Of a stretch of 64,000 bases of DNA, positions 5,095 to 21,172 are shown piece after piece (position 1 is the stretch's first letter; each line of letters opens with the position of its first letter). The notes beneath the pieces were generated by a model. It was not told where the DNA came from, ran no database searches, and was given only the letters and a program-made list of their open reading frames with translations. Position numbers and translations under genes: made by a program. The DNA comes from Bordetella petrii (GTDB taxonomy: Bacteria > Pseudomonadota > Gammaproteobacteria > Burkholderiales > Burkholderiaceae_B), in assembly GCA_017745595.1 (NCBI GenBank), contig WMBV01000004.1, positions 124,001-188,000 on the forward strand, in the 5' to 3' direction.

Positions 5095-5574
5095 ATGCCC
5101 AGATCGACGCTCGCGGGGATGCCCCCAGGCTGGCCGGACCCGCCCGTGGCCCGCGCCCTTGGCTGGCCGCGGGCCGCGTGGCGGCCGGCGGGCCTGGGCG
5201 CCGCCCTGGCCTGGTCGGCCCTGCTGGCCCTGGCGGGCTGCGGCGACGCGCCGCCGCCGCTGGCGCCGCCCGCGCAGGCCGTTGCCTTGCCGGGCGCCGA
5301 CAGCGTCCGGGGGCGCCAGCGCATTGCCGAGTACGGCTGCGTCAGCTGTCATCAGATTCCCGGCATACGCGGCGCCGGCGCGCGCGTCGGGCCGCCGCTG
5401 CGGCATCTGGCCAGCCGCGCCTACCTGGGCGGCGTGCTGGCCAATACGCCCGCCAATCTAGTGCGCTGGCTGCGCGATCCACCCGCCATCGCGCCGCATA
5501 CCGCCATGCCCGACGTGGGGCTGAGCGAGGCCGATGCCCGCGACATCGCCGCCTATCTGCTCACCTTGCGCTGA
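5095..5574 (+). CDS. Lipoprotein cytochrome c, single haem
   Basis: This small protein (159 residues from the ATG at 5095) has a hydrophobic leader ending LALAGC, a lipobox, so it is probably tethered in the periplasm. One haem c site is visible in YGCVSCHQIPG and a methionine ligand in TAMPDV. The start at 5095 is preferred over 5089 because AAAAGGA lies at a usual distance upstream. It heads a rightward pair with the dihaem cytochrome 12 nt downstream and is divergent from the oxidase operon. A role in delivering electrons to the oxidase is inferred. Its haem domain closely resembles the second haem domain of its neighbour. Confidence 0.85.
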   Translation: MPRSTLAGMPPGWPDPPVARALGWPRAAWRPAGLGAALAWSALLALAGCGDAPPPLAPPAQAVALPGADSVRGRQRIAEYGCVSCHQIPGIRGAGARVGPPLRHLASRAYLGGVLANTPANLVRWLRDPPAIAPHTAMPDVGLSEADARDIAAYLLTLR

Positions 5575-5586
5575 AAGGATGCCGCC

Positions 5587-6447
5587 ATGAAACCCTGGAT
5601 GCGTACCGCCGGCATTACTCTGGGGGCCACCGCCGTCGCCGGGGTGGCGGCCGCCCTGGGCCTGGTCTACAGCGGCTGGTACGACAGCACCGCCACCAAC
5701 CCGCACACGCCGCCGGTCAACCATGTGCTGGACATCGCCTTGCAGCGCTCGGTCACCGTGCGGGCCGCCGACGTGGATGTGCCGCCGCTGGATGACCCGC
5801 AGCGTGCCATCGACGGCTTCAAGCTCTTTCGCGCCCACTGTGTGCAGTGCCACGGCGCGCCCGGCGTCGCGCCGGAACCTTTCGCGCGCGGCCTGATGCC
5901 GGCCCCGGCCGCCTTGGTGGACACGGCCCGGCATTGGCCGGCGTCCGAGGTCTACTGGGTAATCCGCTACGGCGCAAAAATGACGGGCATGCCCGCCTGG
6001 CAATATCGCATCAGCGACGACGACATCTGGAACGTGGTGGCCTTCATGAAAGTCCTGCCCACGTTGTCTGTGGCGGACTATCGGGCGTGGGACAGCAGGC
6101 ATGCCGGCGGATCGGCACCGTCTCCGCCGCCGGTGACGCCGGCCGCCGAGTTGCGCGTGGGCGACGCCGAAGCCGGCCGCAAAGCCATGCAGCAGTACCT
6201 GTGCATTACCTGCCATGCCATCCCCGGCGTGGTCGGCGCCAACCGCCACGTCGGCCCGCCGTTGCAGGGCATCGCCAGGCAGCAGTACATCGCCGGCATA
6301 CTGCCCAACACCCCGGACAACATGGTGCGCTGGCTGCGCGGCCCCACCGCCATCGACCCGGACTCGGCCATGCCCAACCTGGACGTCAGCGAGCAGGACG
6401 CACGGGACATGGCCGCCTACCTGTACACGCTGGACGACGCCAAATAA
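5587..6447 (+). CDS. Dihaem cytochrome c, membrane-anchored
   Basis: The 286-residue protein begins with one hydrophobic segment (about residues 7-28, probable uncleaved anchor) and has two haem c motifs: HCVQCHG in the first domain and LCITCHAIPG in the second, with SAMPN as a likely methionine ligand. The second domain aligns along its whole length with the haem domain of the upstream cytochrome (shared VGPPL, NTP, MVRWLR/LVRWLR and DARDxAAYL elements). The two genes probably work together as electron carriers to the adjacent caa3 oxidase. An AAAGGA ribosome site lies just upstream. Confidence 0.85.
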   Translation: MKPWMRTAGITLGATAVAGVAAALGLVYSGWYDSTATNPHTPPVNHVLDIALQRSVTVRAADVDVPPLDDPQRAIDGFKLFRAHCVQCHGAPGVAPEPFARGLMPAPAALVDTARHWPASEVYWVIRYGAKMTGMPAWQYRISDDDIWNVVAFMKVLPTLSVADYRAWDSRHAGGSAPSPPPVTPAAELRVGDAEAGRKAMQQYLCITCHAIPGVVGANRHVGPPLQGIARQQYIAGILPNTPDNMVRWLRGPTAIDPDSAMPNLDVSEQDARDMAAYLYTLDDAK

Positions 6448-7420: not shown

Positions 7421-9583
7421 ATGGCAACTGATCTGGTGGGCGCGGCCGGCAATCATCCTGGCGATTTCCCCGATTTGACGCGGTTCTTTGCGCCACGGCG
7501 GATCGCGCTGGTGGGCGCGACAGAAGATTTGTCGAAGTTTGGCGGGCGGTGCATGCGCCAGACCATGGATTTCGGATACACCGGGGCCATCTATCCGGTG
7601 AACCCGCGCCGCGCAACGGTTTTCGGCCTGCCATGCCACCGCTCGATTGCCGAGCTGCCCGAAGTGCCCGACCATGTGGGCATCGTGCTGCCCGCCACGG
7701 CCGTGCCGCAGGCGCTTGAAGAATGCGCGGCGCGCGGCGTGCCATTCGCCACGGTGTTCTCTTCGGGCTTTGGCGAACTGGGCACCGAGGCCGGCCGGGC
7801 TATGCAGCAACGGATCGTGCAGCAGGCCCGGGAAGGCGGCATCCGGCTGATGGGGCCGAACTGCAACGGCATGGTCAATTTCGTGGATGGCTTCGCGCTG
7901 ACGTCCACGGCCACCATCCAGGGCAAGCGCCGGCCCGCCGGCGACATTGCCGTGGTCAGCCAGTCGGGCGGCGCGGGGCAGGTCAATGTCATGTGGCGCG
8001 CCCAGCAGGCCGGACTGGGCATCAGCTACCAGGTCAGCTGCGGCAACGCCGCCGACCTGGACCTGATCGATTACGCCTGGTTCATGCTGGAAAGCGCGGC
8101 CACGCGCGTTGTGCTGATGCTGGCCGAGCGCCTGACGGACGGCGACCGTCTGCGCCGGCTGGCGTCGCGCGCGGACGCGCTGGGCAAGAGCATCGTGATG
8201 GTGAAGGTGGGGCGCACCGAGGCCGGCAGCCGCGCGGCGGCTTCGCATACCGGCGCGATCACGGGGGCCGACGATGTCTGCGATGCGGCCTTGCGCCAGA
8301 TGGGCATTGTGCGCGTGGACGACTGCAACGAACTCTACGAAACCGCGATGCTGCTGCGCCAGGGGCGCACGGTTGCCGGCCGTGGCGCGGCGGCGACTTC
8401 CATTTCGGGCGGCAATCTGGTCATGGTGGCGGACCTGGGGGCCTCGCTGGGCCTGGAGTGGCCCGAATACACGCCGCATACGCGCGAACGCCTGGCGCAG
8501 GCGCTGCCCGGGTTCGGCTCGGCCGCCAACCCTACTGACCTGACCGCCGCGGCGATTGGCCAGGATGGGGCGTACGAGCAGGCCGCCCGGGCCATACTGG
8601 CCGATCCGGCGGTGGACGTCATGATTCCCGTCCTGACGATCGCCAGCGCGGCCGATATCAGGACGATGGCGCGCGTGGCCGCGGCCAGCGAAAAAATCGT
8701 GCCCATTCTCTGGACCGGCTGCGCATCGGACGATCCGGCGCTGACGCCCGAGACGCTGGTGGCGGAAGGCCAGGCCGTGTACCGGGACGCGCTGGCTTGC
8801 CTGAAAGCGGTGCGGCGCGTCATGGACCATGGCGAATGGCGGCGGCGCCAGGGCGAGGCGCCCGCGGCGCGGCCGGCGGGAACCGACGCGGCGGCGGCGC
8901 GCCAACTGCTGGCGCGAGCCGGCGGGCCGCTCAGCGAGCACCAGTCGAAGGCGCTGCTGGCATGCTACGGCCTGCCGTTGACCCGGGAGTACCTGGCGCG
9001 CTCAGAGGATGAGGCGGTCCGGTGCGCCGCCACGCTGGAGGGCCCGGTGGTGCTGAAGGTGCAGTCCGCCGATATCCCGCACAAGACCGAGGCCGGCGCC
9101 ATACGCATCGGCGTGCAGGGCGGCGCGGCCGTGGCGGCGGCGCATCGCGACATCCTGCAGTCCGCCTCGCGGTATTGCCCGCAAGCCCGCATCGATGGCG
9201 TGCTGGTGCAAGAGATGATCACTGGCGCGCGCGAGATGCTGCTGGGCGTGTCGCGCGACGCCACGTTCGGGCCGGTGCTGGCCATCGGGCTGGGCGGCAT
9301 TCACGTCGAGGTGTTCAAGGATGTGGTGTTCCGCATGGCGCCGCTCAGTCCCGCCGAGGCGCGCCGGGCCATCATGGAATTGCGTAGCGCGGCGCTGCTG
9401 CATGAAGTGCGGGGCCAGCCCGCCGCCGACATCGATGCGCTGGTCGACTGTGTGGTGCGGGTGTCGTGGCTGGCCGCCGACCTGCGCGACAGCCTTGCCG
9501 AGTTGGACATCAACCCCTTGTGCGTGCTGCCCGATGGGCGGGGCGCCCGGGTGGTCGATGCATTAGCCGTGCCTCGCAAGTAG
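7421..9583 (+). CDS. Acyl-CoA synthetase (ADP/NDP-forming), fused alpha and beta domains
   Basis: The 720-residue protein matches the one-chain NDP-forming acetyl-CoA synthetase family. Residues about 15-145 form a CoA-binding Rossmann domain (RIALVGATEDLSKFGGR). Two succinyl-CoA-ligase-like domains follow, with the phospho-histidine H276 in ASHTGAITG. From about residue 500 there is an ATP-grasp domain (GPVVLKVQSADIPHKTEAGAIRIG, FGPVLAIGLGGIHVEV, LAELDINPL). The enzyme would join a carboxylic acid to CoA at the cost of ATP. It probably supplies the activation step for the acyl-CoA genes at 10.6-21.2 kb, which have no other CoA ligase. The substrate cannot be told from sequence. Confidence 0.9.
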   Translation: MATDLVGAAGNHPGDFPDLTRFFAPRRIALVGATEDLSKFGGRCMRQTMDFGYTGAIYPVNPRRATVFGLPCHRSIAELPEVPDHVGIVLPATAVPQALEECAARGVPFATVFSSGFGELGTEAGRAMQQRIVQQAREGGIRLMGPNCNGMVNFVDGFALTSTATIQGKRRPAGDIAVVSQSGGAGQVNVMWRAQQAGLGISYQVSCGNAADLDLIDYAWFMLESAATRVVLMLAERLTDGDRLRRLASRADALGKSIVMVKVGRTEAGSRAAASHTGAITGADDVCDAALRQMGIVRVDDCNELYETAMLLRQGRTVAGRGAAATSISGGNLVMVADLGASLGLEWPEYTPHTRERLAQALPGFGSAANPTDLTAAAIGQDGAYEQAARAILADPAVDVMIPVLTIASAADIRTMARVAAASEKIVPILWTGCASDDPALTPETLVAEGQAVYRDALACLKAVRRVMDHGEWRRRQGEAPAARPAGTDAAAARQLLARAGGPLSEHQSKALLACYGLPLTREYLARSEDEAVRCAATLEGPVVLKVQSADIPHKTEAGAIRIGVQGGAAVAAAHRDILQSASRYCPQARIDGVLVQEMITGAREMLLGVSRDATFGPVLAIGLGGIHVEVFKDVVFRMAPLSPAEARRAIMELRSAALLHEVRGQPAADIDALVDCVVRVSWLAADLRDSLAELDINPLCVLPDGRGARVVDALAVPRK

Positions 9584-9667: not shown

Positions 9668-10657
9668 ATGAGTACAAAACGGCAGACCCCGCGCATGGCA
9701 CGCTGGGGCAGTGCAGCACTGGCCGCCGCGGCGATGGCGCTAGCCGCGCCCGCGGTATCCGCATATCCGGACCGGCCTATTACGGTCATCAATCCGTGGA
9801 CCGCCGGCGGACCCGCCGACACGGTGGCGCGGCCCATACTCGAGAAGCTGTCGCAGCGCCTGGGCCAGCCCGTGGTGCTGGAGAACCGGGCGGGCGCCAA
9901 CGGCCTGATCGGGGCGACGTATGTGGCGCGGGCCAAGCCCGATGGCTACACGTTGCTTTTCTCGCATGTGGGCCCCATCACCATCAGCCCGGCCTTGACC
10001 AAAGACATGCCTTTCGATCCGGTGCGGGATTTCGCGCCGATCACGCAGGTGGTGTCCGCGCCCACCGTCCTGCTGGTCCGTCCCGGCCTGCCCATCCACA
10101 ATCTGAAAGAGCTGGTCGATTATGCGCGCGCGCATCCCGGCAAGCTGTCTTATGGGTCGGTCGGGCCGGGCAGCACCACGCACCTGGCGGGCGTCATCCT
10201 GGGCGACATGGCCGATATCGACCTCTTGCATGTGCCCTACAAGGGCGCGGCGCCCGTCGTGACCGACCTGTTGGGCGGCCAGATCGACATGGGGTTCCTG
10301 AACATCGCGGGTGCCATGCCGTATATCAAGTCCGGCCAGCTGCGGCCGATCGGCGTCAGTACCCTGAAGCGTTCCGCGCTGCTGCCCGATCTGCCGGCAA
10401 TCGCCGAGACTTATCCGGGCTTCGAAGTGAACTCGTGGTATGGCCTGATGGCCCCCGCGAAGACGCCGCCGGCGATTGTCCAACAGCTGCAGCGCGAGGT
10501 CAGCGAAATCCTGAAGCTGCCCGACATCAAGAAACAGTTCGAAGCCATCGGCCTGGCGCCGGAAGGCACCGCGTCCGATGTCTATGCGCAGCAGATCGAG
10601 CGCGACCTCGCGCGCTGGGCCGATATCGTCAAGGCCGCCGGTCTGAAGCCTCAATAG
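9668..10657 (+). CDS. Bug-type periplasmic solute-binding protein (TTT receptor)
   Basis: The 329-residue protein has a signal peptide (about residues 1-32, ending VSAYP) and the family pattern YPDRPITVINPWTAGGPADTVAR. It also has KPDGYTLLF, FAPITQV and the late DLPAIAETYPGFEVNSWYG. These receptors bind carboxylates for tripartite tricarboxylate transporters. TTGGAGACACACC precedes the ATG. It lies 84 nt after the acyl-CoA synthetase, and no TctA/TctB membrane gene is present in the window. Its 3' end overlaps the convergent alpha/beta hydrolase gene by 29 nt. Confidence 0.9.
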   Translation: MSTKRQTPRMARWGSAALAAAAMALAAPAVSAYPDRPITVINPWTAGGPADTVARPILEKLSQRLGQPVVLENRAGANGLIGATYVARAKPDGYTLLFSHVGPITISPALTKDMPFDPVRDFAPITQVVSAPTVLLVRPGLPIHNLKELVDYARAHPGKLSYGSVGPGSTTHLAGVILGDMADIDLLHVPYKGAAPVVTDLLGGQIDMGFLNIAGAMPYIKSGQLRPIGVSTLKRSALLPDLPAIAETYPGFEVNSWYGLMAPAKTPPAIVQQLQREVSEILKLPDIKKQFEAIGLAPEGTASDVYAQQIERDLARWADIVKAAGLKPQ

Positions 10658-11522
10658 GCGCCGATTGCTGCATGAAAGTCAGGATCCGGTCCACGACGTC
10701 GGCCGGCCGGCTTTCCAGGACGCCGCCATTGGCATCGTCCAGCGTGGCGTAGTGCGCCTGCTGCATCCGGGCGCACAGCGCCGGACCCTGCGGGCCGAAA
10801 TGGGCCTCGGCCTCGGTCAGCAGTTCCAGCACCAGCGTGCGCGCGGCGATGCGCTGCATCGTGCCGGTCAGGTCGAAATCGAAGATGGCGTCGTAGACCG
10901 GCATGACCGACTTCCAGCCCTGCAGATAGTCCAGCACGCGGATTTCGGCCTGCGCGACTTGCGCGGCGTCGGCCCGCGCGGAACGCAGCAGCGCCGGCGG
11001 CCACCAGTAGCCGTCCAGCGTCGCGTGCGCGCCCAGCCAGTTGCGCAGGGCGTCGGCATGCGGATCGCCGCTGGCGTGCGTGGGCGTATAGCGGGCCAGA
11101 AAGTCGCGGATGCCGGCGTTGCGTTCGGCGTGATCGGCGTGGATGCTGTGGGTCTGGCCGGCCAGGATGACGTCGCCCACGCGGTCGGGCCAGTCGCTGG
11201 CCAGCGCCGCGGCAATCTTGTTGCCGGTATGCAGGCCGAACACGTGCGCGCGCTCGATCTCCAGGGTATCCATCAGTTGCACCAGGCTGGCCGCCAGCGC
11301 CGGCAGGCTGATGGGGCCGGGCAGCGGCGCCGAGTTGCCGAAGCCGGGCGTGTCGACGGCGATGGCGCGGAAGTGGGGCGCCAGCAGGGGCAGCATGTGG
11401 CGGAACACACGGTGCGAGCGCGGCGTGGCATGAAGCAGCAGCAGCGGTGCGCCGGTGCCGGCTTCGGCATAGTGCACCTGGCCGCCCGGCGTGGCGGCAT
11501 AGCCGCAGGTCTGGTTGGTCAT
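10629..11522 (-). CDS. Alpha/beta hydrolase fold protein with atypical nucleophile elbow
   Basis: The 297-residue protein has the fold's landmarks: LLLLHATPRSHR for the oxyanion strand-loop, AVDTPGFGNS, and an elbow in HVFGLHTGNKIA. The elbow reads G96-L-H98-T-G100, so a histidine occupies the place normally held by Ser, Cys or Asp. I recall GxHTG elbows in other proteobacterial members, so it may be a real subfamily. A possible acid/His pair lies in LVLELLTEAEAHFG. It is the last gene of the leftward operon, 8 nt after a Bug receptor, and may remove an ester or lactone from the imported substrate. The reaction is not known. Confidence 0.75.
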   Translation of the reverse strand: MTNQTCGYAATPGGQVHYAEAGTGAPLLLLHATPRSHRVFRHMLPLLAPHFRAIAVDTPGFGNSAPLPGPISLPALAASLVQLMDTLEIERAHVFGLHTGNKIAAALASDWPDRVGDVILAGQTHSIHADHAERNAGIRDFLARYTPTHASGDPHADALRNWLGAHATLDGYWWPPALLRSARADAAQVAQAEIRVLDYLQGWKSVMPVYDAIFDFDLTGTMQRIAARTLVLELLTEAEAHFGPQGPALCARMQQAHYATLDDANGGVLESRPADVVDRILTFMQQSAPIEASDRRP

Positions 11523-11530
11523 GGTTGCCC

Positions 11531-12508
11531 TCAATCCATGGTGACGTGGGCCGCGCGGATGATCTGCGCGTAGCGTTCGGAATCGTTGCGCAGGGTCCGG
11601 GCGAACGCTTCGGGCGTGGTGCCTGTCGGCGTGATGCCCAGCGCATCGAAGCGTTGGCGCACTTCGGGTGCCTGCAGGGCTGCGTTGACGTCGGCGTTGA
11701 TTTTGCGCACCAGGTCGCCGGGCAGGCCGGCGGGGGCCAGCACGCCCCACCAGATGCCGCCGTCGAAGCCGGGCAGCGCCGCCTCGGACATGGTGGGCAG
11801 GTCCGGCAGCACCGGCGAGCGCTGCGGGCTGGTCACCGCCAGGGCGCGGATGCGGCCGGCCTGCACCTGCGGCAGTGCCGACGGCATGGCTTCGATCATC
11901 ATCTGCACCGTGCCGCCGACCAGGGCCGCCATGGCGGGCCCGCTGCCGTTGTACGGAATGTGCACGATGTCCACGCCCGCGTCGCGCTTGAACATTTCGG
12001 TGATCAGGTGGATGGACGTGCCGTTGCCGGTGGAGGCGTACGACAGCTTGCCGGGCTGCGCCTTGGCCTGCGCGATCAGTTCCTTGACGGTGCGCGCCGG
12101 CACCGACGGGTGCACCACCGCCAGCATGGGCGCCGTGCCCACCAGCGAAATCGGCGTGAAATCGGCGATGGGGTCGAACGGCAGCTTGGGATTCAGGCCG
12201 GGCAGGATCGCGTGCGTGATGCTGCCCAGCATCAGCGTCAGGCCGTCGGGGGCGGCGCGCGCCACGACGTCGCTGCCGATGACGCCGCTGGCGCCGGGCC
12301 GGTTCTCGACCACCACCGATTGTTTCCAGGCCGCGGTCAGGGGCTGGCTGAGGGCGCGCGCGATCGAATCGTTGGGGCCGCCGGGCGGGTAGGGCACCAC
12401 GATGCGGACCGGGTGTGCGGGGAAACTTTCGGCCGTGCCGGACGCGGCGGGGGCGCCCGCGGTTGCCGCGAGCAGGACGCAGATCAGTAGCCTATGCCAT
12501 GCCATCAT
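11531..12508 (-). CDS. Bug-type periplasmic solute-binding protein (TTT receptor)
   Basis: The start at 12508 follows AAGGAGACAATC, an ideal ribosome site, and gives 325 residues. A signal peptide (MMAWHRLLICVLLAATAG onward) is followed by the signature VRIVVPYPPGGPNDSIAR and the usual KLPFDPIADFTPISLVG, GKLSYASTGNGTSIH and LPDLPTMSEAALPGFDGG segments. It is one of three Bug receptors in this operon; the sequences differ clearly, so they probably bind different or related acids. No transporter membrane subunits are adjacent. Confidence 0.9.
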   Translation of the reverse strand: MMAWHRLLICVLLAATAGAPAASGTAESFPAHPVRIVVPYPPGGPNDSIARALSQPLTAAWKQSVVVENRPGASGVIGSDVVARAAPDGLTLMLGSITHAILPGLNPKLPFDPIADFTPISLVGTAPMLAVVHPSVPARTVKELIAQAKAQPGKLSYASTGNGTSIHLITEMFKRDAGVDIVHIPYNGSGPAMAALVGGTVQMMIEAMPSALPQVQAGRIRALAVTSPQRSPVLPDLPTMSEAALPGFDGGIWWGVLAPAGLPGDLVRKINADVNAALQAPEVRQRFDALGITPTGTTPEAFARTLRNDSERYAQIIRAAHVTMD

Positions 12509-12555
12509 GATTGTCTCCTTGGTGCCGGGCCGGGGCCGCGGCGTGTTCAATCGGC

Positions 12556-13542
12556 TTAATTGATCTTGATGCCGGCTTTGCGGACCACGTCTTCCCACTT
12601 GCGGGTTTCCTGCCGCATGTAGTCGGCGAAGGCCTGCGGGCTCATGGGCATCGGGTCCAGCCCCTGCCTGGCCAGCAGCTGCTGCATGTCCGCACTGTTG
12701 ATAATGCGCGTCAGTTCGGCGTTGAGCTTGTCGACCACCGGCTTGGGCGTGCCGGCCGGGGCCAGGATGCCGAACCACGATCCCACGTCGAAGCCGGGCA
12801 GCCCGGATTCGTCGACGGTGGGCAGCTCGGGCATGGCCGAGGCGCGCTTCTTGGTCGAGATGGCTACGGCGCGCAGCTTGCCGCTGCGCACGTGCGGCAG
12901 CGACGAGGTCATGCCGTCGAAGATCATATCGACGTGCCCGCCCAGCAGATCCACGATGGCTGGCGCGTTGCCCTTGTATGGCACGTGGGTCATGGAAATG
13001 CCGGCCATGTTCTCGAGCAGTTCGCCGGCCAGGTGGGCGCCCTGGCCGGCCCCGCCGGAAGCGAAGCTGAAGCGATTGGGCTGGGCCTTTGACAGCGTGA
13101 TGACGTCGTTGATGGAATGGATGGGGGAGTCCGGCCGCACGACCAGCATCAACGGCAGGGTGGCAACGGTGGTGACTGGCGCGAAATCCTTGACGGGATC
13201 GTAGGGCAGCGTGTCGTACAGGCTGGGGTTGACCACCAGGGTGCCGAAGAAGGCGACCAGCAGGCTGTAGCCATCGGGCGCCGCCTTGGCCACCATTTCG
13301 GTGGCGATGAAGGAATTGCCGCCGGGGCGGTTTTCCACCACCACCGGTACTTTCCAGGCCTGGCCGAGCCGTTCGCCCAGCGCGCGCGAGACGGTATCGG
13401 TGGGGCCGCCGGGCGGGAAGGGCAGGATCAGGTGGATGGGCTTGGACGGGTACGTGTCCTGGGCGGCCGCCGGCAGTGTTGCCGCGCCGGCCAGGCAGGC
13501 CAGGGTCAATATCAGGGGCTTGCAGCGGGAAAGCAATCGCAT
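12556..13542 (-). CDS. Bug-type periplasmic solute-binding protein (TTT receptor)
   Basis: This 328-residue protein starts MRLLSRCKPLILTLACLAG, a signal peptide cleaved near AAAQDTYPS, then IHLILPFPPGGPTDTVSRALG. The remaining family landmarks (PYDPVKDFAPVTTVA, FSFASGGAGQGAHLAGELLENMAG, ELPTVDESGLPGFDVGSWFG) are all present. TGGAGACCCACC lies before the ATG. It is arranged in tandem with the receptor at 11531, 47 nt apart, and follows the flavoprotein gene. Confidence 0.9.
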   Translation of the reverse strand: MRLLSRCKPLILTLACLAGAATLPAAAQDTYPSKPIHLILPFPPGGPTDTVSRALGERLGQAWKVPVVVENRPGGNSFIATEMVAKAAPDGYSLLVAFFGTLVVNPSLYDTLPYDPVKDFAPVTTVATLPLMLVVRPDSPIHSINDVITLSKAQPNRFSFASGGAGQGAHLAGELLENMAGISMTHVPYKGNAPAIVDLLGGHVDMIFDGMTSSLPHVRSGKLRAVAISTKKRASAMPELPTVDESGLPGFDVGSWFGILAPAGTPKPVVDKLNAELTRIINSADMQQLLARQGLDPMPMSPQAFADYMRQETRKWEDVVRKAGIKIN

Positions 13543-13630: not shown

Positions 13631-15046
13631 TCAGGATTCGTGGCGCGGCGCCGCGGCCTGGTGCCCTGCGATGCGGCCGAACACCGCGCTCTTGCCCAGC
13701 GACGAGCCCGTCATGTAGGCCGCGCCGTGAAAGCCTCCGGTGACTTCGCCGGCGGCGTACAGGCCGGGGATAGGGTCGCCGTAGACGTCCAGCACGCGGG
13801 CCTGCGCGTCGATCGCCAGCCCCGCGTAGGTGGCCAGCACGGCGCTGGTCGAGGCGTAGGCATAGAACGGCGCGGTGTCGATGCGGCACAGCGCGCCGTA
13901 GTGATTGGCCAGCCCGTCGCGGCCGAACTCAGTGTCGCGGCCATACTGCGCAACGTCGCGGTTGTAGCGGTCCAGCGTGGCGGTCAGCGCGGCCGCGTCG
14001 ATGCCCAGCTGGCCGGCCAGCGCCGCGATAGAGTCGGCCTGCACCAGGTGCCCCGACGCCAGCGCGTCCTGGAAGTCCGAGGTCGTCACGCCGGGCACCG
14101 ACAGGGCCATGATGCCCGCGTCGAAGATCTGGTAGGCCAGGGCGTCGCGCTGTTCCAGGCAGGCATCGCCGCTGATCTTGTACGACACGGATTCGTCGAC
14201 GAAGCGGCGCCCGTCCAAGTTGACGGCGATGCCGCCCTTGAAGATGGCATGGATGAGCAGGCGCTGTTCGGTACCGGAGCTGGGATGCACGCCGAAGGTG
14301 CCGCGCACGTATCCCATGTCGCGCAGGTTCGCGCCCAGCGCCATGCCCATCCGTAGTCCGTCGCCGGTGTTGCCGCGCCCGCCGATGCGCAGCGCGCGGG
14401 TCTGCAGGGGCGCGAACACGCCCAGCCATTCCTCGCTGCGCGAAAATCCGCCGGTGGCCAGTACGATGCCGTGCCTGGCACGCAGCGGCCGGGCCGGCGC
14501 GGCGCCTTCCGCGACCAGCAGCTCCAGGCCGCCGTCGTGGCCGATGTGGCGCAGGCGCTGCGCCTGCGTGTTGCGGCGCAGTTCGAAGCGGCCCGTCGCG
14601 CGAGCGCTATTGTCCAGCGCGGCGATCATCTGCTCTGTGTCGACGCGGTTCGAGCGGGGCACAGACTGGCCGCCACCCAGTTGCACCGAATGGAATCGCA
14701 CCCCATGCTGCTTCAGCCAGCGGTAGGTGTCGAGCTGGGCGGCCGCATAGGCCTGCAGCAGCAGCGGGTCATTGCGCCCGCCGCCCACTTTCTGCAGATC
14801 GGACAGCAGCAGCGCGTCGGAATCGCTGATGCCGGCCGCCAACTGCTCGTCGGTGCCGGCAAAGGCCATGGCGCCGCCGCTGATGAGGGTACTGCCGCCG
14901 ACCTCGTCGAGCTTTTCCAGCATGAGCACGCGGTGGCCTTCCTGCAGGGCCGCCAGGGCGGCGCAGTAGCCGGCCAGCCCACCGCCGCAGACGATGACAT
15001 CTGCCTGGTCGGCCGGCCGCGCCGGGGGAGTGTCTGAAGTGTGCAA
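13631..15046 (-). CDS. FAD-dependent oxidoreductase of the fumarate reductase/ketosteroid dehydrogenase type
   Basis: The 471-residue flavoprotein has an N-terminal dinucleotide fold (ADVIVCGGGLAGYCAALAAL, then LEKLDEVGGSTLISGGAMAF) and a C-terminal FAD segment (PGLYAAGEVTGGFHGAAYMTGSSLG). This architecture is shared by fumarate reductase flavoproteins, tricarballylate dehydrogenase and 3-ketosteroid dehydrogenases, which move hydrogens across a C-C bond next to a carbonyl. The start is TTG at 15046, preceded by GGGAGACCAGCC; no better ATG exists. It is in the leftward acyl-CoA operon, 45 nt after the enoyl-CoA hydratase. The substrate is unknown; desaturation of the carbon skeleton is a reasonable guess. 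Confidence 0.85.
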   Translation of the reverse strand: MHTSDTPPARPADQADVIVCGGGLAGYCAALAALQEGHRVLMLEKLDEVGGSTLISGGAMAFAGTDEQLAAGISDSDALLLSDLQKVGGGRNDPLLLQAYAAAQLDTYRWLKQHGVRFHSVQLGGGQSVPRSNRVDTEQMIAALDNSARATGRFELRRNTQAQRLRHIGHDGGLELLVAEGAAPARPLRARHGIVLATGGFSRSEEWLGVFAPLQTRALRIGGRGNTGDGLRMGMALGANLRDMGYVRGTFGVHPSSGTEQRLLIHAIFKGGIAVNLDGRRFVDESVSYKISGDACLEQRDALAYQIFDAGIMALSVPGVTTSDFQDALASGHLVQADSIAALAGQLGIDAAALTATLDRYNRDVAQYGRDTEFGRDGLANHYGALCRIDTAPFYAYASTSAVLATYAGLAIDAQARVLDVYGDPIPGLYAAGEVTGGFHGAAYMTGSSLGKSAVFGRIAGHQAAAPRHES

Positions 15047-15091: not shown

Positions 15092-15871
15092 CTATTGCCC
15101 GGTGTAGCGGGGCGGACGCTTTTCCTGGAACGCGCGCGCGGCTTCCTGGCGGTCCTGGGTATCCACCAGGTGCGCGGACAGGTCGCTTTCCAGCCGCATG
15201 CCGTCGGCCAGCGGCAGTTCGGCGCCGCCGCGCACCGCTTCTTTGGCGAACTGCATGGCCAGCGGCGGGCGCGCGGCGATGTGCCGGGCCAGGTCGCCGG
15301 CGGCCTGCTGCAGCGCCTCGGGCGCCGCCAGCCGCGAGACCAGGCCCATGGCCAGCGCCCGCTCGGCATCCAGCCGTTCGCCGGTCAGCACCAGGTCGAG
15401 CGCCACGCCCATGCCTAGCACGCGGGTGATGCGCTGCGTGCCGCCGGCGCCGGGGATGATGCCGTGGCCGGTCTCGGGCAGGCCGAAGGTCGCGTTCGTG
15501 GCGGCGATGCGGATGTCGCAGGCCAGCGCGATTTCCAGTCCGCCGCCCAGGCAGTGGCCGTGCACGGCGGCGATCACCGGTTTGAGCGCGCGGTCGAAGG
15601 CGGTGATCCAGTGATGATGCACGCGCGCCTGGCGGTACGCCGCCGGTTGCGGTGCGGTGCCGAATTCCTTGATGTCGGCGCCGACACAGAAGGCGCGCGG
15701 GCCGGCGCCGCGCACCACGATGACCCGCACTTGCGGGTTGGCGTCGGCCTTGGCCACGGCCTCGGGCAGCAGGCGCCTGACATCGTCGTTGATGGCATTC
15801 AGGGCGTCGGGGCGGTTCAGCGTGATCCACGCGACCGCGTCTTCGATATGGACGAGCACGGCGTCGGTCAT
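15092..15871 (-). CDS. Enoyl-CoA hydratase
   Basis: The 259-residue crotonase-fold protein has both acidic residues of hydratases: the glutamate in GGGLEIALACD and the one in FGLPETGHGIIPGAGGTQ. The oxyanion-hole segment is RAFCVGADIKEF. It should add water to a trans-2-enoyl-CoA. The ATG (CGGAGACATC before it) overlaps the stop of the DUF35 gene by 4 nt, so the two are translationally coupled. In this operon it would form the 3-hydroxyacyl-CoA that the thiolase-like/DUF35 pair could then cleave. Confidence 0.9.
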   Translation of the reverse strand: MTDAVLVHIEDAVAWITLNRPDALNAINDDVRRLLPEAVAKADANPQVRVIVVRGAGPRAFCVGADIKEFGTAPQPAAYRQARVHHHWITAFDRALKPVIAAVHGHCLGGGLEIALACDIRIAATNATFGLPETGHGIIPGAGGTQRITRVLGMGVALDLVLTGERLDAERALAMGLVSRLAAPEALQQAAGDLARHIAARPPLAMQFAKEAVRGGAELPLADGMRLESDLSAHLVDTQDRQEAARAFQEKRPPRYTGQ

Positions 15872-16254
15872 GATGTCTCCGGGATGGGTTCGAACTGCGG
15901 CGGCTGGCCCGGCGCGCCGGCGCGCACTTGCACGGGCAGGCCGATGCGGGCCTGGTCGGGCGCGATGCCGACCAGCCGCGTCATCAGGTGCGGTCCTTCG
16001 TCGGTGGCGACGATGGCCACGGTGTAGGGCACGTCGGCGGCGAATGCCGGGCTGGGCGCGCGGTGCACGACGGAATAGCTGTAGACGGTGCCGCGCCCGC
16101 TGGCGCGCGCCGGCACTACGTCGGTGCTGCCGCAGAACGGGCAGGCCGGGCGCGGGTAGAAATGGAAGCGCCGGCAGGCGGCGCAGTGCGGCAGGGCGAA
16201 GCCCAGGCCGCGCACCCGGCCCCAGTAGGAATCGTATTGGTCTGTGTCGGACAT
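15868..16254 (-). CDS. DUF35 OB-fold protein with zinc ribbon
   Basis: The 128-residue protein has an N-terminal zinc ribbon (HCAACRRFHFYPRPACPFCG, two CxxC pairs) and a C-terminal OB fold (GRGTVYSYSVVHRAPSPAF, PYTVAIVATDEGPHLMTRL). DUF35 proteins form complexes with thiolase-superfamily partners. In the steroid side-chain aldolase Ltp2-ChsH2 the DUF35 part is needed for activity. The gene lies 4 nt after the thiolase-like gene and overlaps the hydratase gene, a typical arrangement for such a complex. Confidence 0.9.
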   Translation of the reverse strand: MSDTDQYDSYWGRVRGLGFALPHCAACRRFHFYPRPACPFCGSTDVVPARASGRGTVYSYSVVHRAPSPAFAADVPYTVAIVATDEGPHLMTRLVGIAPDQARIGLPVQVRAGAPGQPPQFEPIPETS

Positions 16255-16258
16255 GGCG

Positions 16259-17431
16259 TCAGGCCTTTGCGATGATCAACGTGGCGTGCAGGCCGATGAT
16301 GCCGCCGTTGCCGTGCACCAGCGCCACCTCGGCGTTCGGGACCTGGCGTTCTCCGGCCTGGCCGCGTATCTGGCGCACGCCTTCCACCAGATGCAGCATG
16401 CCTCCCGCCAGGCCGGGATGTCCGGCCGAGAGCAGCCCCCCGTGAGTGGTGACCGGCAGCCTGCCGCCCGGCCCGATGGCGCCGTGCTCGACATATCGGC
16501 CGCCTTCGCCCTTGGCGCAGAAGCCCAGGTCTTCCAGTTCGATGATGACGGTGATGGTGAAGCAGTCGTACAGCTCGGCCACGTCGATGTCCGCCGGCGC
16601 CAGGCCCGCCATGGCGTAGGCGTCGCGGCCGGATTGCACCGCGCCGGTAGTGGTGACGTTGCGGTAGTCGCCGATATAAGTGTGCGAATGCCCGTAGCCG
16701 TGGCCCAGCAGCTTGACGGCCGGCTGGCGCAGGTCGCGCGCGCGTTCCGGCGTGGTGACGATGAACGCGGCCGCGCCGTCGGATACCAGCGCGCAATCCA
16801 GCAGCCGCAGCGGCGAGGTGATCATGCGCGACTGCATCACGTCGGCCAGCGAGATCGGATCGCGTTTGTGCGCCAGCGGATTGCGCGCCGCGTGCGCGCG
16901 CATGGCGACCGCGACTTCCGCCATCTGCTCGAAGGTGGTGCCGTATTCGTGCATGTGGCGCTGGGCCGCCAGCGCGTACAGCGTGGGCACCATCGGGCCG
17001 TAGGGAGCTTCGAACTCCGGGTGCGCCCAGCCGGCATCGGCCATTTTCTGCACCGCCGCGCCGCGCGAATGGAACGACAGCAGGTTCTGCCCGGCCACGC
17101 ACAGCACGGTCTCGCACTGCCCGGTGGCCACCGCCATGGCCGCGTGGTGGGCCATGGCCACGCCCGACGCCCCCGCCACGTCCAGCGTGGCCAGGTAGCG
17201 CGGTTGCAGGCCCAGGCCGTCGGCCACCACGCCGCAGGGCATGGCCCAGTTTTCCACGCGCAGCGGCGTGGTGAGCAGGCCGTCGATGTCTTGCGGCGCC
17301 AGGCCGGCATCGGCCAGCGCGCTCAGGGCCGCCTGGCGCTGCAGGCCGAGCGCGTCGAACTGGGGCACCAGCCCGAGCGGGCTTTCGCCCACGCCGGCAA
17401 TGACCGCCGCCAGGGGCGCGCGCCGGCTCAC
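16259..17431 (-). CDS. Thiolase-superfamily protein lacking the nucleophilic cysteine (candidate retro-aldolase)
   Basis: From the GTG at 17431 (overlapping the upstream stop as GTGA) the protein is 390 residues, the usual size of lipid-transfer/SCP2 thiolases. The N-terminal position that carries the catalytic Cys in thiolases reads DVAGASGVAMA, with Gly87 where CASG is expected. The LYDCFTITVIIELEDLGFC segment (Tyr288) and GGLLSAGHPGLAGG are present. The steroid aldolase Ltp2 likewise lacks the thiolase cysteine and uses tyrosines, one of them near residue 294. With the DUF35 partner next door, retro-aldol cleavage of a 3-hydroxyacyl-CoA is a plausible activity. Ordinary thiolysis is unlikely without the cysteine. 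Confidence 0.8.
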   Translation of the reverse strand: MSRRAPLAAVIAGVGESPLGLVPQFDALGLQRQAALSALADAGLAPQDIDGLLTTPLRVENWAMPCGVVADGLGLQPRYLATLDVAGASGVAMAHHAAMAVATGQCETVLCVAGQNLLSFHSRGAAVQKMADAGWAHPEFEAPYGPMVPTLYALAAQRHMHEYGTTFEQMAEVAVAMRAHAARNPLAHKRDPISLADVMQSRMITSPLRLLDCALVSDGAAAFIVTTPERARDLRQPAVKLLGHGYGHSHTYIGDYRNVTTTGAVQSGRDAYAMAGLAPADIDVAELYDCFTITVIIELEDLGFCAKGEGGRYVEHGAIGPGGRLPVTTHGGLLSAGHPGLAGGMLHLVEGVRQIRGQAGERQVPNAEVALVHGNGGIIGLHATLIIAKA

Positions 17432-18570
17432 CGCAGCACCTCGCGCGCGATCAGCATGCGCTGGATCTCGGATGAGCCTTCGCCCACGCGATAATGGCGG
17501 ATGTCGCGGTAAAAGCGTTCCACCGGGAAGCCGCGCACCAGCCCCATGCCACCATGGATCTGCACTGCCCGGTCGGCGACGCGGCCCACCATTTCCGACG
17601 CGGCCAGTTTGCACATGCTGGGCGCGCTGCCGGTGTCTTCGCCGGCCTGCAGGCGGCGCAGGGTTTCATAGACGAAAGCCCGCGCCTGCGCCAGTTCGGT
17701 GGCGGAATCGGCCAGCATCCACTGGATGGCCTGGCGTTCGGCCAGTGGCTTGCCGAAGGTGGTGCGTTCCCGGGCATACTGCGCGGACATTTCCAGCAGG
17801 CGGTCGGCCGCGCCCAGGCAAGAGCAGGCCACGCCCATGCGGCCGCTGGTCAGCGACGACATGGCCACCTTGAAGCCCTGGCCGACCTCGCCCAGCACAC
17901 CGCCGGCCGGCACCACGCAATTGTCGAAGGTCAGTTCGGCCAGCTTGATGGGTTCCGAACCGATGGTGGTGTCGACCCGGGACACCGCGAAGCCCGGCGT
18001 GCCCTTGTCGACCAGGAAGGCGGTGATGCCGCCGCGCGCGCGTTTTTCCGGGTCGGTGACAGCCATGACCAGGACCACGTCGGCGACATGGGCGCCGCTG
18101 ATGTAGTGCTTGCTGCCGTTGAGTACCCAGCCGTCGCCGCGCGGCTCGGCGCGCGTCTGGATCGCTTGCGCGTCCGAGCCCGCGCCCGGCTCGGTCAGCG
18201 CGAACGACGCGTTCAGCGTGCCCGCGCACAGCCCTGCCAGGTAGCGTTCCTGCTGGGCGGCTGTGCCGAAGCGGGCGATCGCGATGGGATTCAGGCCGCT
18301 GGTCGCATCCAGGATCAGCGTGAAGATGCGGTGCGAGCGGCTGAACTCTTCCAGCACCAGGCAATAGGTGGGCAGGTCGAAGTCGCCGCCGCCGAATTTG
18401 GCGGGCAGGCGCATGCCCAGGTAGCCGTGCTCGCGCAGCAGCGGCACGGCGCGCTCGGGCAATTGGCCGGTGCGGTCGATTTCCAGGGCGATCGGTTCGA
18501 GCTGCTGTTGCGTGAAGCGGCGGATGGCCGCGCGCATCTCGGCGAGTTCCGGGCTGATTTCCAGTTGCAA
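17428..18570 (-). CDS. Acyl-CoA dehydrogenase
   Basis: The 380-residue protein has the full family pattern: N-terminal helical domain, FALTEPGAGSDAQAIQTRAE with NGSKHYISGA (FAD and substrate loops), QIHGGMGLVRGFPVERFYRD, and a C-terminal GEGSSEIQR whose first glutamate is the probable catalytic base. It would oxidise an acyl-CoA to the 2-enoyl-CoA. The start is a TTG at 18570 with CAGGAGACCTGAC upstream; the frame further upstream looks non-coding. It begins 1 nt after the stop of the crotonase-like gene and overlaps the thiolase-like gene, so it is tightly embedded in the operon. Confidence 0.9.
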   Translation of the reverse strand: MQLEISPELAEMRAAIRRFTQQQLEPIALEIDRTGQLPERAVPLLREHGYLGMRLPAKFGGGDFDLPTYCLVLEEFSRSHRIFTLILDATSGLNPIAIARFGTAAQQERYLAGLCAGTLNASFALTEPGAGSDAQAIQTRAEPRGDGWVLNGSKHYISGAHVADVVLVMAVTDPEKRARGGITAFLVDKGTPGFAVSRVDTTIGSEPIKLAELTFDNCVVPAGGVLGEVGQGFKVAMSSLTSGRMGVACSCLGAADRLLEMSAQYARERTTFGKPLAERQAIQWMLADSATELAQARAFVYETLRRLQAGEDTGSAPSMCKLAASEMVGRVADRAVQIHGGMGLVRGFPVERFYRDIRHYRVGEGSSEIQRMLIAREVLR

Positions 18571-18571
18571 G

Positions 18572-19312
18572 TCAGGTCTCCTGGGGACGTGTTGGTGGCG
18601 CGGGCTGGCCGGCCAGCGTGGCTGCCTCGGCTGCTTCGGCCAGGTGCTGGCGCAAGCCGCGGTTGATCCAGCGCTTGTTGGCCGCGTAGGCGTGGCCGGC
18701 GTGCGCGCCGCGCGCCTGCGCCAGTGCGGCGCAGCGGCCGCGCAAGGCCGGCGCCGACGCCAGGTGGTCGACCAGGCCGGACTGCAGGGCCTGGCCGGCA
18801 TCGATGCGTTCGCCGGCCTGTACCAGCCGCTGCAACATCGGCCGGGGCGCGCGCCGCGCCACGATGGCCGCGCCTATCGGCGTGGGCATGCCCAGCCGGA
18901 TTTCCGGCAGCGACAGCCAGGCGGGCTCCGCCATGACGATCTCGTCGCAAACCAGGGCCAGCATGGCGCCGGCGCCGACGGCCGGGGCCTGCACACAGGC
19001 CAGCAGCGGCTTGGGAAAGTCCAGCAAGGTGTACAGGGTGTCCATCAGCAGGTCGCGGCGGCGTTGCGCGGCCTCTGCCGTGGGCAATTCGGCGAACTCC
19101 TTCAGGTCGGCGCCAGCGCAGAATGCCCGCTCGCCAGCCGCGCCCAATACCACCGCGCCGATGGCGGGGTCTTGCGCGGCCTGTCGCAGCGCCCGGGCCA
19201 GCGCGGCGCAGGTGGCCTGGTTCAATGCGTTGGCGGCGGCCGGGCGGGCCAGCGTCAGCCAGCGCACGGTGCCTTCGGTAACGGTCTCGATCATAGGAAG
19301 CAGTGTCGTCAT
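18572..19312 (-). CDS. Enoyl-CoA hydratase/isomerase family protein
   Basis: The 246-residue crotonase-fold protein has the oxyanion-hole element ERAFCAGADLKEF. The first acidic residue expected in GGGxE is replaced (VGAGAMLALVCDEI). A glutamate is kept in LSLPEIRLGMPTPIGA. Crotonase proteins with one glutamate are often isomerases or hydrolases rather than hydratases. This one is therefore probably not redundant with the hydratase at 15092. It is the third gene of the leftward operon, 12 nt after the racemase-like gene. Confidence 0.82.
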   Translation of the reverse strand: MTTLLPMIETVTEGTVRWLTLARPAAANALNQATCAALARALRQAAQDPAIGAVVLGAAGERAFCAGADLKEFAELPTAEAAQRRRDLLMDTLYTLLDFPKPLLACVQAPAVGAGAMLALVCDEIVMAEPAWLSLPEIRLGMPTPIGAAIVARRAPRPMLQRLVQAGERIDAGQALQSGLVDHLASAPALRGRCAALAQARGAHAGHAYAANKRWINRGLRQHLAEAAEAATLAGQPAPPTRPQET

Positions 19313-19324
19313 GCGGGGCGCCGT

Positions 19325-20122
19325 TCAGCGGGCGGACAGCGCGTCCACCTGCTGCAGGATGTCGGCGGGCGGAGTCGTGTAGGCCCAGCGGCGGCCCACG
19401 CCCATGCCCGTCGCGCGCTGCAGCCGCACCATCATTTGCGCGGCCGCGAGCGCATTGCCGATGCAATCCATCACGGTCGCGCCATCGATTGTGCGCACGC
19501 CATTGAAAAAGAGCAGTTCGCTCAGCACGCCTTCGGCCGGAATCACCACGTCGGCACCGCCGTCGACCAGGCGTTGGGCCACGGCGCGAAAATCGTCGCA
19601 GACGTCCTGCGGAGTGCTCAACGCCGCTTCGAGCTGCGCTTCGGTGACGGGGCGGGCCAGCGCCTCGATGCCGCTGACGCGCGCGCCCAGGGAATGCCGC
19701 GCCACCAGCGCTGCCACGCGCTTGACGCCGGCCGGCGCGAGCGGCACCAGCGCGAAACGCTCGGCCAGCGTGCACGCGGTCAGCAGCGCGCTTTCAGGCA
19801 TCGAGACCACGGGGATGCGCAAGATCGAACGGATCTCGGCCAGAAAGGGCTCGCTGAAGCTGCCCAGAATGACGGCGTCGTGGCCGTCGGCCTGCGCCCG
19901 GCGGCAGAAGTCGATGGCCTCGCGCTGGATGACGTGCTTGACATAGGGGAAGCGCAGCATTTCCGCCGGGGTGCGGACGTCATACCAGTGCTCTGAAGCG
20001 CCGTTGAACGTGACGGCGACCTCGTCGCCGCAGACCGCTTGCGCATGCCGCGACAAGGCCTGGACGTACCGGGGCAGGTGGCCCAGCGGCGCCATGGACT
20101 GATACCAGATTTTCATGGTCAT
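19325..20122 (-). CDS. Asp/Glu/hydantoin racemase-like protein without the catalytic cysteines
   Basis: The 265-residue protein has the racemase-family fold pattern: KIWYQSMAPLGHLPRYVQAL, DAVILGSFSEPFLAEIRSILRIPVVSMPESAL, and GGADVVIPAEGVLSELL. In hydantoin and Asp/Glu racemases cysteines sit in the loops corresponding here to GSFSEP (Ser88) and IPAEGV (Ala196). Both are absent, so a two-cysteine racemase mechanism is not possible. It may act as an isomerase, decarboxylase or binding protein on a dicarboxylate. It is the second gene of the operon, directly after a Bug receptor. Confidence 0.7.
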   Translation of the reverse strand: MTMKIWYQSMAPLGHLPRYVQALSRHAQAVCGDEVAVTFNGASEHWYDVRTPAEMLRFPYVKHVIQREAIDFCRRAQADGHDAVILGSFSEPFLAEIRSILRIPVVSMPESALLTACTLAERFALVPLAPAGVKRVAALVARHSLGARVSGIEALARPVTEAQLEAALSTPQDVCDDFRAVAQRLVDGGADVVIPAEGVLSELLFFNGVRTIDGATVMDCIGNALAAAQMMVRLQRATGMGVGRRWAYTTPPADILQQVDALSAR

Positions 20123-20149: not shown

Positions 20150-21172
20150 TTATTCGACCTTGGCGCCCGTCATCTTGACGATGGCGGCGTATTCGGGGAT
20201 TTCCTTGGCGATCTGCGCGGCGAACTGCTGCGGCGTGCTGGCGATTTTCTCCAGTCCGCCGTCCACGAACAGGCGCTGGTGGATATCAGGCTGGTTCAGT
20301 GCGTCGATCACTGCGTCATGCAGCTTTTGCACGATCGCCGGCGGCGTCCCCGCGGGGGCGAGCAGGCCATACCAGGAAACGATCTGGAAGCCCGGCAAGC
20401 CGGATTCGGCCACCGTGGGGATGTCCGGCGCGAACGAGGCGCGCTTGGCCGTGACCACCGCCAACCCTTTCAGCGAGCCATTCTGCAGCGACGGCATGGC
20501 TGCCAGCAGGCCGCCGACCATCAGCTTCACGTGCCCGGCCAGCAGGGCTGTGGTTGCCGGAGCCATGCCGCGATAGGGAATGTGCGCGAGGTCGATGCCG
20601 GCGCGTTGCGCCAGCAGTGCGCCGGCCAGGTGGCCGCCGGATCCCGCGCCCGACGATCCATAGTTCAGCTGGCCCGGATGTGCCTTTGCGTAAGCAATCA
20701 GTTCCTGCACGTTGTTGACCGGGACGGACGGATGCGCCAGCAGCACGAGCGGGATTTCGGCGATCTCGGTGATGGGCGCGAAATTCTTTTGCGGATCGAA
20801 AGGCAGTTTGGCGTACAGCGAGCGGTTCACCACCAGCGGGCCGTTCGTGCCCAGCAACAGGGTCTGGCCGTCGGGCGCCGCGCGGGCGACTTCTTCGGTG
20901 CCGATATTGCCGCCCGCGCCAGAACGGTTTTCGACGACGAACGGCTGCCCCAGGCTGATCGCCAGTTTCGCGGCGATGCTGCGCGCCACGATATCCGCGG
21001 GGCCACCCGGCGGATAGGGCACGATGACGCGCACCGGGCCCGAGGGGTAGGCGGCGGCCGCGCCGGCGGTGCGCGCCAGGCCGGCCGTGATCAGCATGGC
21101 GGCGACGCAGGCGGCGCCCAGTGCGGCCAGGCGACGCATGGCACGCCCGTACGTGATGGTCGGGGTCATCAT
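20150..21172 (-). CDS. Bug-type periplasmic solute-binding protein (TTT receptor), first gene of the operon
   Basis: The start at 21172 is preceded by TGGAGACCTC and gives 340 residues. The signal peptide (about residues 12-38, LAALGAACVAAMLITAGLA) is followed by VRVIVPYPPGGPADIVARSI. Further family elements are FDPQKNFAPITEIAEIPLV, LNYGSSGAGSGGHLAGALLAQRAG and DIPTVAESGLPGFQIVSWYG. It leads an eleven-gene leftward operon and lies just downstream of the putative IclR operator copy B, so uptake and breakdown genes would be induced together. Confidence 0.92.
   Translation of the reverse strand: MMTPTITYGRAMRRLAALGAACVAAMLITAGLARTAGAAAAYPSGPVRVIVPYPPGGPADIVARSIAAKLAISLGQPFVVENRSGAGGNIGTEEVARAAPDGQTLLLGTNGPLVVNRSLYAKLPFDPQKNFAPITEIAEIPLVLLAHPSVPVNNVQELIAYAKAHPGQLNYGSSGAGSGGHLAGALLAQRAGIDLAHIPYRGMAPATTALLAGHVKLMVGGLLAAMPSLQNGSLKGLAVVTAKRASFAPDIPTVAESGLPGFQIVSWYGLLAPAGTPPAIVQKLHDAVIDALNQPDIHQRLFVDGGLEKIASTPQQFAAQIAKEIPEYAAIVKMTGAKVE

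Follow-up and report, generated by a model that had tools for sequence, protein, structure and literature searches.

Introduction

The described systems closest to the gene studied here are thiolase-fold proteins paired with DUF35 proteins. CtSal, a proteobacterial bile acid aldolase with the DUF35 partner Shy (PDB 9myr), has Gly at the thiolase nucleophile position together with Tyr-Asp-Cys and THGG motifs, and its Tyr302 and Cys304 are essential, according to PMC12329534. The steroid C3 side-chain aldolase TcLtp2, partnered by the DUF35 protein ChsH2 (6ok1), has the same Gly and THGG and a catalytic Tyr (Tyr294). SCP-2 thiolases and the benzoylsuccinyl-CoA thiolase BbsAB share the fold, have a Cys nucleophile and an HDxF motif, and fall outside the clade described below; BbsAB also pairs with DUF35. 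Since both BbsB and archaeal acetoacetyl-CoA thiolase, which retain the Cys in our alignment, form complexes with DUF35 proteins (PMC12329534; 6esq), DUF35 pairing by itself does not separate an aldolase from a thiolase.

For ibuprofen degradation, PMC9195938 describes a retro-aldolase step yielding propionyl-CoA and 4-isobutylcatechol, and credits the propionyl-CoA to a 'thiolase' encoded by ipfDE. On plasmid pIBU218 (NZ_CP059320), the published ipfE primer falls within an OB-fold gene. The gene adjoining it is by position ipfD, and its product has no Cys, with Gly and Tyr instead. As this step is published and IpfD belongs to the same clade as CtSal and TcLtp2 (see below), a clade member with a non-steroid substrate is already in print. 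A second Cys-less thiolase-like/OB-fold pair on pIBU218 (L194, 20939-22503) is Ltp2-like (YDHF plus Tyr) and adjoins genes for a crotonase and a CaiB-type CoA-transferase.

Here, we analysed a stretch of 64,000 nucleotides from Bordetella petrii (the window), which encodes a Cys-less thiolase-fold protein, hereafter the query. With a probability of roughly 0.7, judging from sequence and by analogy with the characterised enzymes, we take the query to be the catalytic subunit of a 3-hydroxyacyl-CoA retro-aldolase acting with its DUF35 partner, rather than a thiolase.

Results

An intact thiolase-fold gene beside a DUF35 gene

The gene is intact, with 390 codons between a GTG start at 17431 and a stop codon ending at 16259, as placed in the initial annotation. 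The GTG overlaps the stop codon of the upstream acyl-CoA dehydrogenase gene by 4 bp (GTGA), and the ATG of the DUF35 gene follows at 16254, leaving the 4-nt gap that had been noted before (Table 1). Comparison with a 94% orthologue gives pN/pS 0.13, a sign of purifying selection. In Pfam the product matches Thiolase_C_1 (PF22691) and, weakly, Thiolase_N. Its best NCBIfam model is PRK06158 (NF004811), 'acetyl-CoA acetyltransferase', with a score of 410.7 bits that lies below the curated cut-off of 421. The closest PDB sequences are 4u4e (the best, 307 bits), 9myr (CtSal), 6ok1 (TcLtp2), 7yvy and 7pxp (BbsB). The first of these, a putative thiolase of Sphaerobacter thermophilus, shares the Gly, the Tyr and the GHP-position His with the query, but has YDSF and belongs to another subclade.

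Table 1. Positions in the window of the putative retro-aldolase gene, its proposed active-site codons and neighbouring genes
Feature	Position	Strand	Remarks
Cys-less thiolase-fold protein, proposed 3-hydroxyacyl-CoA retro-aldolase	16259..17431	-	390 aa; PF22691 204 bits, PF00108 34 bits
Gly87 codon, thiolase nucleophile position	17171..17173	-	Gly in 49/49; aligned with thiolase Cys and CtSal Gly89
Tyr288 codon, proposed catalytic base	16568..16570	-	Tyr in 49/49; putative role after PMC12329534
Cys290 codon, proposed proton donor (CtSal Cys304)	16562..16564	-	Cys 45/49, Ser 4/49; putative role
His338 codon, thiolase GHP His; column of CtSal Gln352 and TcLtp2 Tyr344	16418..16420	-	His 45/49, Gln 4/49
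His330 codon in TTHGG; Ser in most thiolases (NPSGG)	16442..16444	-	His 45/49; one of five clade-separating columns
DUF35 protein, zinc ribbon and OB fold, free-standing	15868..16254	-	128 aa; PF01796 83.5 bits, PF12172 34 bits
Acyl-CoA dehydrogenase, proposed 2,3-desaturation	17428..18588	-	PF00441, PF02770, PF02771; GTG start at 18588 putative
Crotonase, Met at first catalytic Glu, second Glu kept	18572..19312	-	PF00378 133 bits
Second crotonase, both Glu, proposed hydratase	15092..15871	-	PF00378 218 bits
ADP-forming acyl-CoA ligase, proposed activation	7421..9583	+	720 aa; PF13549, PF13607, PF13380
FAD-binding dehydrogenase (flavocytochrome c-like), next in window operon	13631..15046	-	PF00890 205 bits; no conserved part of the set
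Asp/Glu/hydantoin racemase-family protein	19325..20122	-	PF01177; family in 5/56 leftover cassette genes
TctC-type periplasmic binding protein	12556..13542	-	PF03401
TctC-type periplasmic binding protein	20150..21172	-	PF03401

The AlphaFold2 model built from 49 aligned sequences (pLDDT 89, pTM 0.91) matched TbSLP with malonyl-CoA (Z 53.0, rmsd 1.9, 375 residues), 6esq (Z 52.5), CtSal (9myr; Z 51.6, rmsd 2.5 over 379 residues, 33% identity) and TcLtp2 (6ok1; Z 49.1). This predicted fold cannot tell a thiolase from an aldolase, because both have it. With TbSLP among the closest structures and YDCF common to both proteins, the query might instead be an acyl-CoA decarboxylase or hydrolase, or a C-C bond former. 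According to PMC12329534, TbSLP does decarboxylate malonyl-CoA, but slowly (0.005 per s), and CtSal has no such activity; furthermore, the ligase, dehydrogenase and crotonase of the gene set point to a degradative route through 2,3-enoyl and 3-hydroxy intermediates. We regard this alternative as unlikely.

A Sal-type Tyr-Cys dyad with a thiolase His

Gly87 and Tyr288 are invariant in an alignment of 49 sequences, 48 from the 80 fetched loci plus the window, and also in all 118 distinct sequences with BLAST scores above 120 bits, a set that includes the window and omits its own duplicate (L009) and one true thiolase (L071, 16109-17155). Because of this invariance, their presence is, on the alignments, neither chance nor a sequencing slip. 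As the initial annotation had proposed, Gly87 lies in the column of the thiolase nucleophile (Cys in 10 of 11 rows outside the clade, Ala in one), and Tyr288, which it had placed near the Ltp2 Tyr, aligns exactly with TcLtp2 Tyr294, with CtSal Tyr302 and with the His of HDxF. Five alignment columns set the clade apart from thiolases, those of Gly87, Tyr288 and His330 among them. Distant paralogues in the same genome diverge from the clade marks, Gly at the nucleophile position and Tyr in YDxF, which the query carries: position 87 is Gln in L174 or Ala in L175, never Cys, and position 288 is Leu in L173.

The query lacks two thiolase marks, the nucleophilic Cys (Gly87) and the HDxF His (Tyr288), and keeps a third, the GHP His (His338), which sits in a loop (335-339) with pLDDT below 50 in the model. 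Both Ltp2 marks are absent, Cys290 aligning with His296 of YDHF and His338 with Tyr344. The Tyr302/Cys304 dyad of Sal is present as Tyr288/Cys290, while Sal Gln347, Gln352 and Gln161 are replaced by Leu333, His338 and Pro149, the 161 column adjoining a gap. Judging from these residues, the active site is best described as the Tyr-Cys dyad of Sal combined with the GHP His of thiolases, not as the Tyr294 plus Tyr344 of Ltp2. Because CtSal needs both residues of the dyad (PMC12329534), its presence in the query argues for a retro-aldolase.

Could the query still be a thiolase that uses another nucleophile, most likely Cys290, the counterpart of the second Cys in SCP-2 thiolases? It retains the thiolase fold and the GHP His, and models and annotators name its relatives acetyl-CoA acetyltransferase or thiolase. 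Against this, position 87 is Gly throughout the 49 relatives; within residues 80-95, Cys is one of the four commonest letters only at 80 (8/49) and 91 (12/49); the HDxF His has become Tyr; and sister clades have Ser or Ala in place of Cys290. CtSal shares the Gly and is an aldolase (PMC12329534). Together with the gene neighbourhood described below, these points make a thiolase quite improbable.

Among the 118 members, the residues at positions 290/338 are C/H in 69, A/H in 24, S/H in 19, C/Q in four and N/Y in one, with one sequence truncated. Gln338 always accompanies Cys290 (4/4), and Ala or Ser at 290 always accompanies His338 (43/43), a covariation suggesting that either Cys290 or His338 could return the proton. 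This pairing rule fails in distant members, namely L166 (D/Q), L173 (S/M), L174 (S/Y) and IpfD (A/Y), the last being 40% identical to the query, with FYDAF and Tyr at the GHP position. At position 290, where C, S, A, N, D, G and H all occur, the tree requires 10 changes or more, and the proposed acid is not fixed across the family.

A free-standing DUF35 partner

Just a zinc ribbon and an OB fold (zf-ChsH2 and OB_ChsH2_C) were found by Pfam in the 128 residues of the DUF35 protein, whose best PDB match is the DUF35 protein of ChsH2 (6ok1_B). Its zinc ribbon has four Cys ligands, C24, C27, C38 and C41 (C-x2-C-x10-C-x2-C), invariant in 16 of 16 sequences, in contrast to the Cys3His1 site of Shy. 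Shy is a DUF35 within a MaoC hydratase, whereas the protein in the window is free-standing and, unlike ChsH2, is not carried by a MaoC-type hydratase subunit. A DUF35 gene lies on the same strand in all 43 orthologue loci that have 600 bp downstream.

The lack of the classical nucleophile, and the report that multienzyme complexes are held together by DUF35 proteins (PMC12329534), would also fit a catalytically dead CoA-binding partner or a scaffold for the dehydrogenase and crotonase. We consider this very unlikely, given that Gly87 and Tyr288 are invariant and Cys290 and His338 nearly so in the 49 relatives, that purifying selection acts on the gene, and that the set holds no conserved Cys-bearing thiolase for it to assist.

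A large clade of Cys-less proteins

In a tree of 74 proteins, the Cys-less proteins form one clade of 65 rows (support 100/100) that holds CtSal, TcLtp2, 4u4e, IpfD and the query, and nine Cys/HD thiolases fall outside it. All 65 sampled rows lack the thiolase nucleophile. The rows of the first tree were hand-picked (20 of the 46 orthologue loci, 25 other loci, 21 proteins of the same genome, seven PDB stretches and the window); the second tree gained two plasmid proteins and omits two long branches, L176 (Ala) and L178 (Cys), which lie outside the clade in the first. The Cys/no-Cys state takes one change in the first tree and the Tyr/His state three. On these trees the absence of the Cys is ancestral to the clade and not a local loss. 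The initial annotation was thus right that the nucleophilic Cys is absent, but its statement that the protein 'has lost' it misleads, because the change arose at the base of a large family.

The query belongs to a 22-row subclade (100/100) whose members all have Gly, YDC and His. TcLtp2 lies in a separate 9-row group (99/87) with IpfD, an LTP-like protein and six paralogues from the genome of the query, and CtSal is likewise in another clade than the query. All three characterised enzymes, CtSal, TcLtp2 and IpfD, share a 25-row group, and the query falls into a different one. Their function is therefore carried by analogy over a deep split, which counts against the retro-aldolase reading.

The genome of the query has 22 PF22691 matches, comprising 15 Cys-less clade members, six with Cys and one with Ala. 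Its 15 DUF35 matches adjoin all 15 Cys-less genes and none of the seven other family genes (one-sided chance 6e-6). These 15 pairs in one 6.1 Mb genome are spread over contigs C1, C3, C5, C9, C10, C11, C12, C13, C18, C44, C63, C67 and C68, and six of the Cys-less genes (L040-L045) encode YDAF with a GHP-position His.

A recurrent gene set around the orthologues

From a homologue scan of genome contigs, in which the best 80 of 276 loci were kept, at least 46 loci were found at 62% identity or above. They come from Bordetella, Pollutimonas and many betaproteobacterial assemblies, as well as from Roseomonas, Rubritepida and Chelativorans records. In a sample of 399 genomes of the same order, matches at E 1e-135 or better occur in 14, counting the query's own, so that the candidate gene is a scattered accessory gene.

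Of the 36 orthologue loci with 4.6 kb upstream, 30 have an ADP-forming acyl-CoA ligase gene upstream on the same strand (it is on the opposite strand in the window), 29 an acyl-CoA dehydrogenase gene and 26 a crotonase gene. Ligase, dehydrogenase, crotonase and DUF35 genes are all present in 21 of 34 testable loci; at least one partner is absent in the other 13, and L075, L077 and L083 are without ligase, dehydrogenase and crotonase. The gene set is therefore not universal among the orthologue loci. Neither the set nor the clade was found described in our literature searches, which took in few subscription papers. The FAD-binding dehydrogenase that comes next in the window operon has a close copy (91%) in L047 and L059 alone, two records of a single genomic stretch, and a 29% relative in L106.

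Crotonases have two catalytic Glu residues, and single-Glu crotonases include isomerases and hydratase-lyases. In the upstream crotonase, Met replaces the first Glu in the window copy as well as in all 28 readable copies from other loci, and the second is kept in 29 of 29; the copies are the 27 counted as upstream plus L071, one copy being truncated at the first site. This sequence suggests that the upstream crotonase may not be an ordinary enoyl-CoA hydratase. Both Glu are present in all six downstream copies of the second crotonase from other loci. The hydration step is unsure because the upstream crotonase lacks one catalytic Glu; this enzyme may still perform the hydration in some altered manner, or the second crotonase may do so in the window.

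Four genes for TctC-type binding proteins flank the operon (window 9668-13542 and 20150-21172), and the stretches fetched for 41 of 49 loci contain TctC genes. No membrane component for TctC proteins was found among the window genes scanned with Pfam. A cytochrome oxidase cluster (COX1, COX2 with cytochrome c, CBB3-type cytochrome; window 1372-6444) also adjoins the gene set.

No 3-hydroxyacyl-CoA dehydrogenase found near the orthologues

We searched 5 kb to either side for a 3HCDH_N or SDR gene on the same strand and found one at none of 47 orthologue loci (22 with full flanks, 25 cut short on a side). Among 51 other loci of the family, 15 have such a gene, as do 12 of the 35 with full flanks; eight of the 51 are paralogues from the genome of the query. 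The 47 loci are the 46 above plus L049, and L047 and L048 had been dropped as copies of L059 and L077. Since reference frames with fused crotonase domains match the crotonases of the cassettes, only the 3HCDH_N and SDR domain stretches served as references (10 and 12, BLAST E 1e-8, distances centre to centre), a search by which distant SDRs can be missed. When 56 leftover genes around the candidate were scanned with Pfam, the 25 of 84 families listed, those with at least two genes, included neither a 3-hydroxyacyl-CoA dehydrogenase or SDR nor an aldehyde dehydrogenase; these lists are without L098 and L099, two of the 47 loci, which have no gene call for the candidate.

Orthologue loci at which no 3-hydroxyacyl-CoA dehydrogenase was found argue further against a thiolase. 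In favour of a thiolase, however, seven of the 15 relatives near a dehydrogenase or SDR carry YDC (L112, L113, L114, L120, L124, L127 and L130, all outside the subclade of the query), which weakens YDC as a sign of an aldolase; the family may not be uniform, and YDC by itself may not mark aldolases.

Within the genome of the query, an SDR gene lies on the same strand within 5 kb of all six Cys-bearing members, and an SDR or dehydrogenase gene near three of the 15 Cys-less ones (p 0.0015). At 3 kb the counts are 3/6 versus 2/15 (p 0.11) and at 7 kb 6/6 versus 4/15 (p 0.004). Three of the six Cys genes have their SDR at 4.3-5.0 kb, and the contrast depends on the distance cut. This test used the 10 strong 3HCDH_N matches of the genome, 12 weak ones being dropped. 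The SDR nearest to the query is 39 kb away. Three Cys-less YDAF paralogues, L040 (C18), L044 (C3) and L045 (C10), have an SDR or 3-hydroxyacyl-CoA dehydrogenase gene within 5 kb, a neighbour that a plain retro-aldolase would not need. The genome holds 10 strong 3HCDH_N matches and 84 SDR matches elsewhere, and the missing dehydrogenase could come from there.

Discussion

The analysis establishes the predicted fold, the residues, the clade and the gene set, and it found no dehydrogenase nearby. We infer the catalytic roles, the complex with the DUF35 protein and the order of the reactions. Weighing against a retro-aldolase are the deep split from the characterised enzymes, the variable position 290, the relatives that do have a dehydrogenase or SDR nearby, the dehydrogenases and SDRs elsewhere in the genome, the incomplete gene sets, the single-Glu crotonase and the lack of an aldehyde dehydrogenase among the families listed. 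In the proposed route, a carboxylic acid would be activated by the ADP-forming acyl-CoA ligase, the acyl-CoA desaturated by the acyl-CoA dehydrogenase and the enoyl-CoA hydrated by a crotonase. The retro-aldolase, together with the DUF35 protein, would then cleave the 3-hydroxyacyl-CoA to acetyl-CoA (propionyl-CoA from a 2-methyl substrate) and an aldehyde or ketone. Ibuprofen degradation differs in that its hydroxyls come from a ring dioxygenase (PMC9195938) instead of desaturation and hydration.

The initial annotation, an Ltp2-ChsH2-like retro-aldolase rather than a thiolase, holds up in its second half. The nucleophile and the HDxF His are replaced, the clade shared with CtSal, TcLtp2 and IpfD is fully supported, a DUF35 gene accompanies every orthologue locus that could be scored, and the search around the orthologues revealed neither a 3-hydroxyacyl-CoA dehydrogenase nor an SDR. 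The likeness to Ltp2-ChsH2 does not hold, as YDHF and Tyr344 are absent, the dyad is that of Sal, the DUF35 protein stands free without a MaoC hydratase, and the query has its own clade. Its putative chemistry most resembles that of Sal, with one thiolase His retained, and no 3-hydroxyacyl-CoA dehydrogenase was found in the conserved gene set around it. Nothing points to a steroid role, and the query has no visible steroid context. The HsaA model reached 34 bits in the genome against a cut-off of 450 bits; no control genome scored above that cut-off, and the comparison speaks against a bile acid or steroid substrate without being decisive.

More tentatively, at somewhat less than even odds, the gene set may be a degradation module, so far undescribed, that occurs in Burkholderiales and a few Alphaproteobacteria. 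Ligase, dehydrogenase and one-Glu crotonase would be followed by a Tyr/Cys/His retro-aldolase with a free DUF35 protein, by-passing the oxidation and thiolysis half of beta-oxidation, and the 15 pairs in the genome would form a repertoire of aldolases for different acids. If so, the module would suit acids with a blocked 3-carbon (tertiary or aryl), and the proton would be supplied by Cys290, His338 or a Tyr, differing by subclade. The natural variants of the family, YDC/H, YDC/Q, YDA/H, YDS/H and YDH/Y, offer material for asking which residue delivers it.

Relatives of the query carry the database names thiolase or acetyl-CoA acetyltransferase. If the clade consists of retro-aldolases, pathway reconstructions that trust these names would err at the cleavage step, and this genome alone would hold 15 candidates. 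C-C lyases beyond steroids and ibuprofen, or aldol-forming biocatalysts working in reverse, would then become directly testable.
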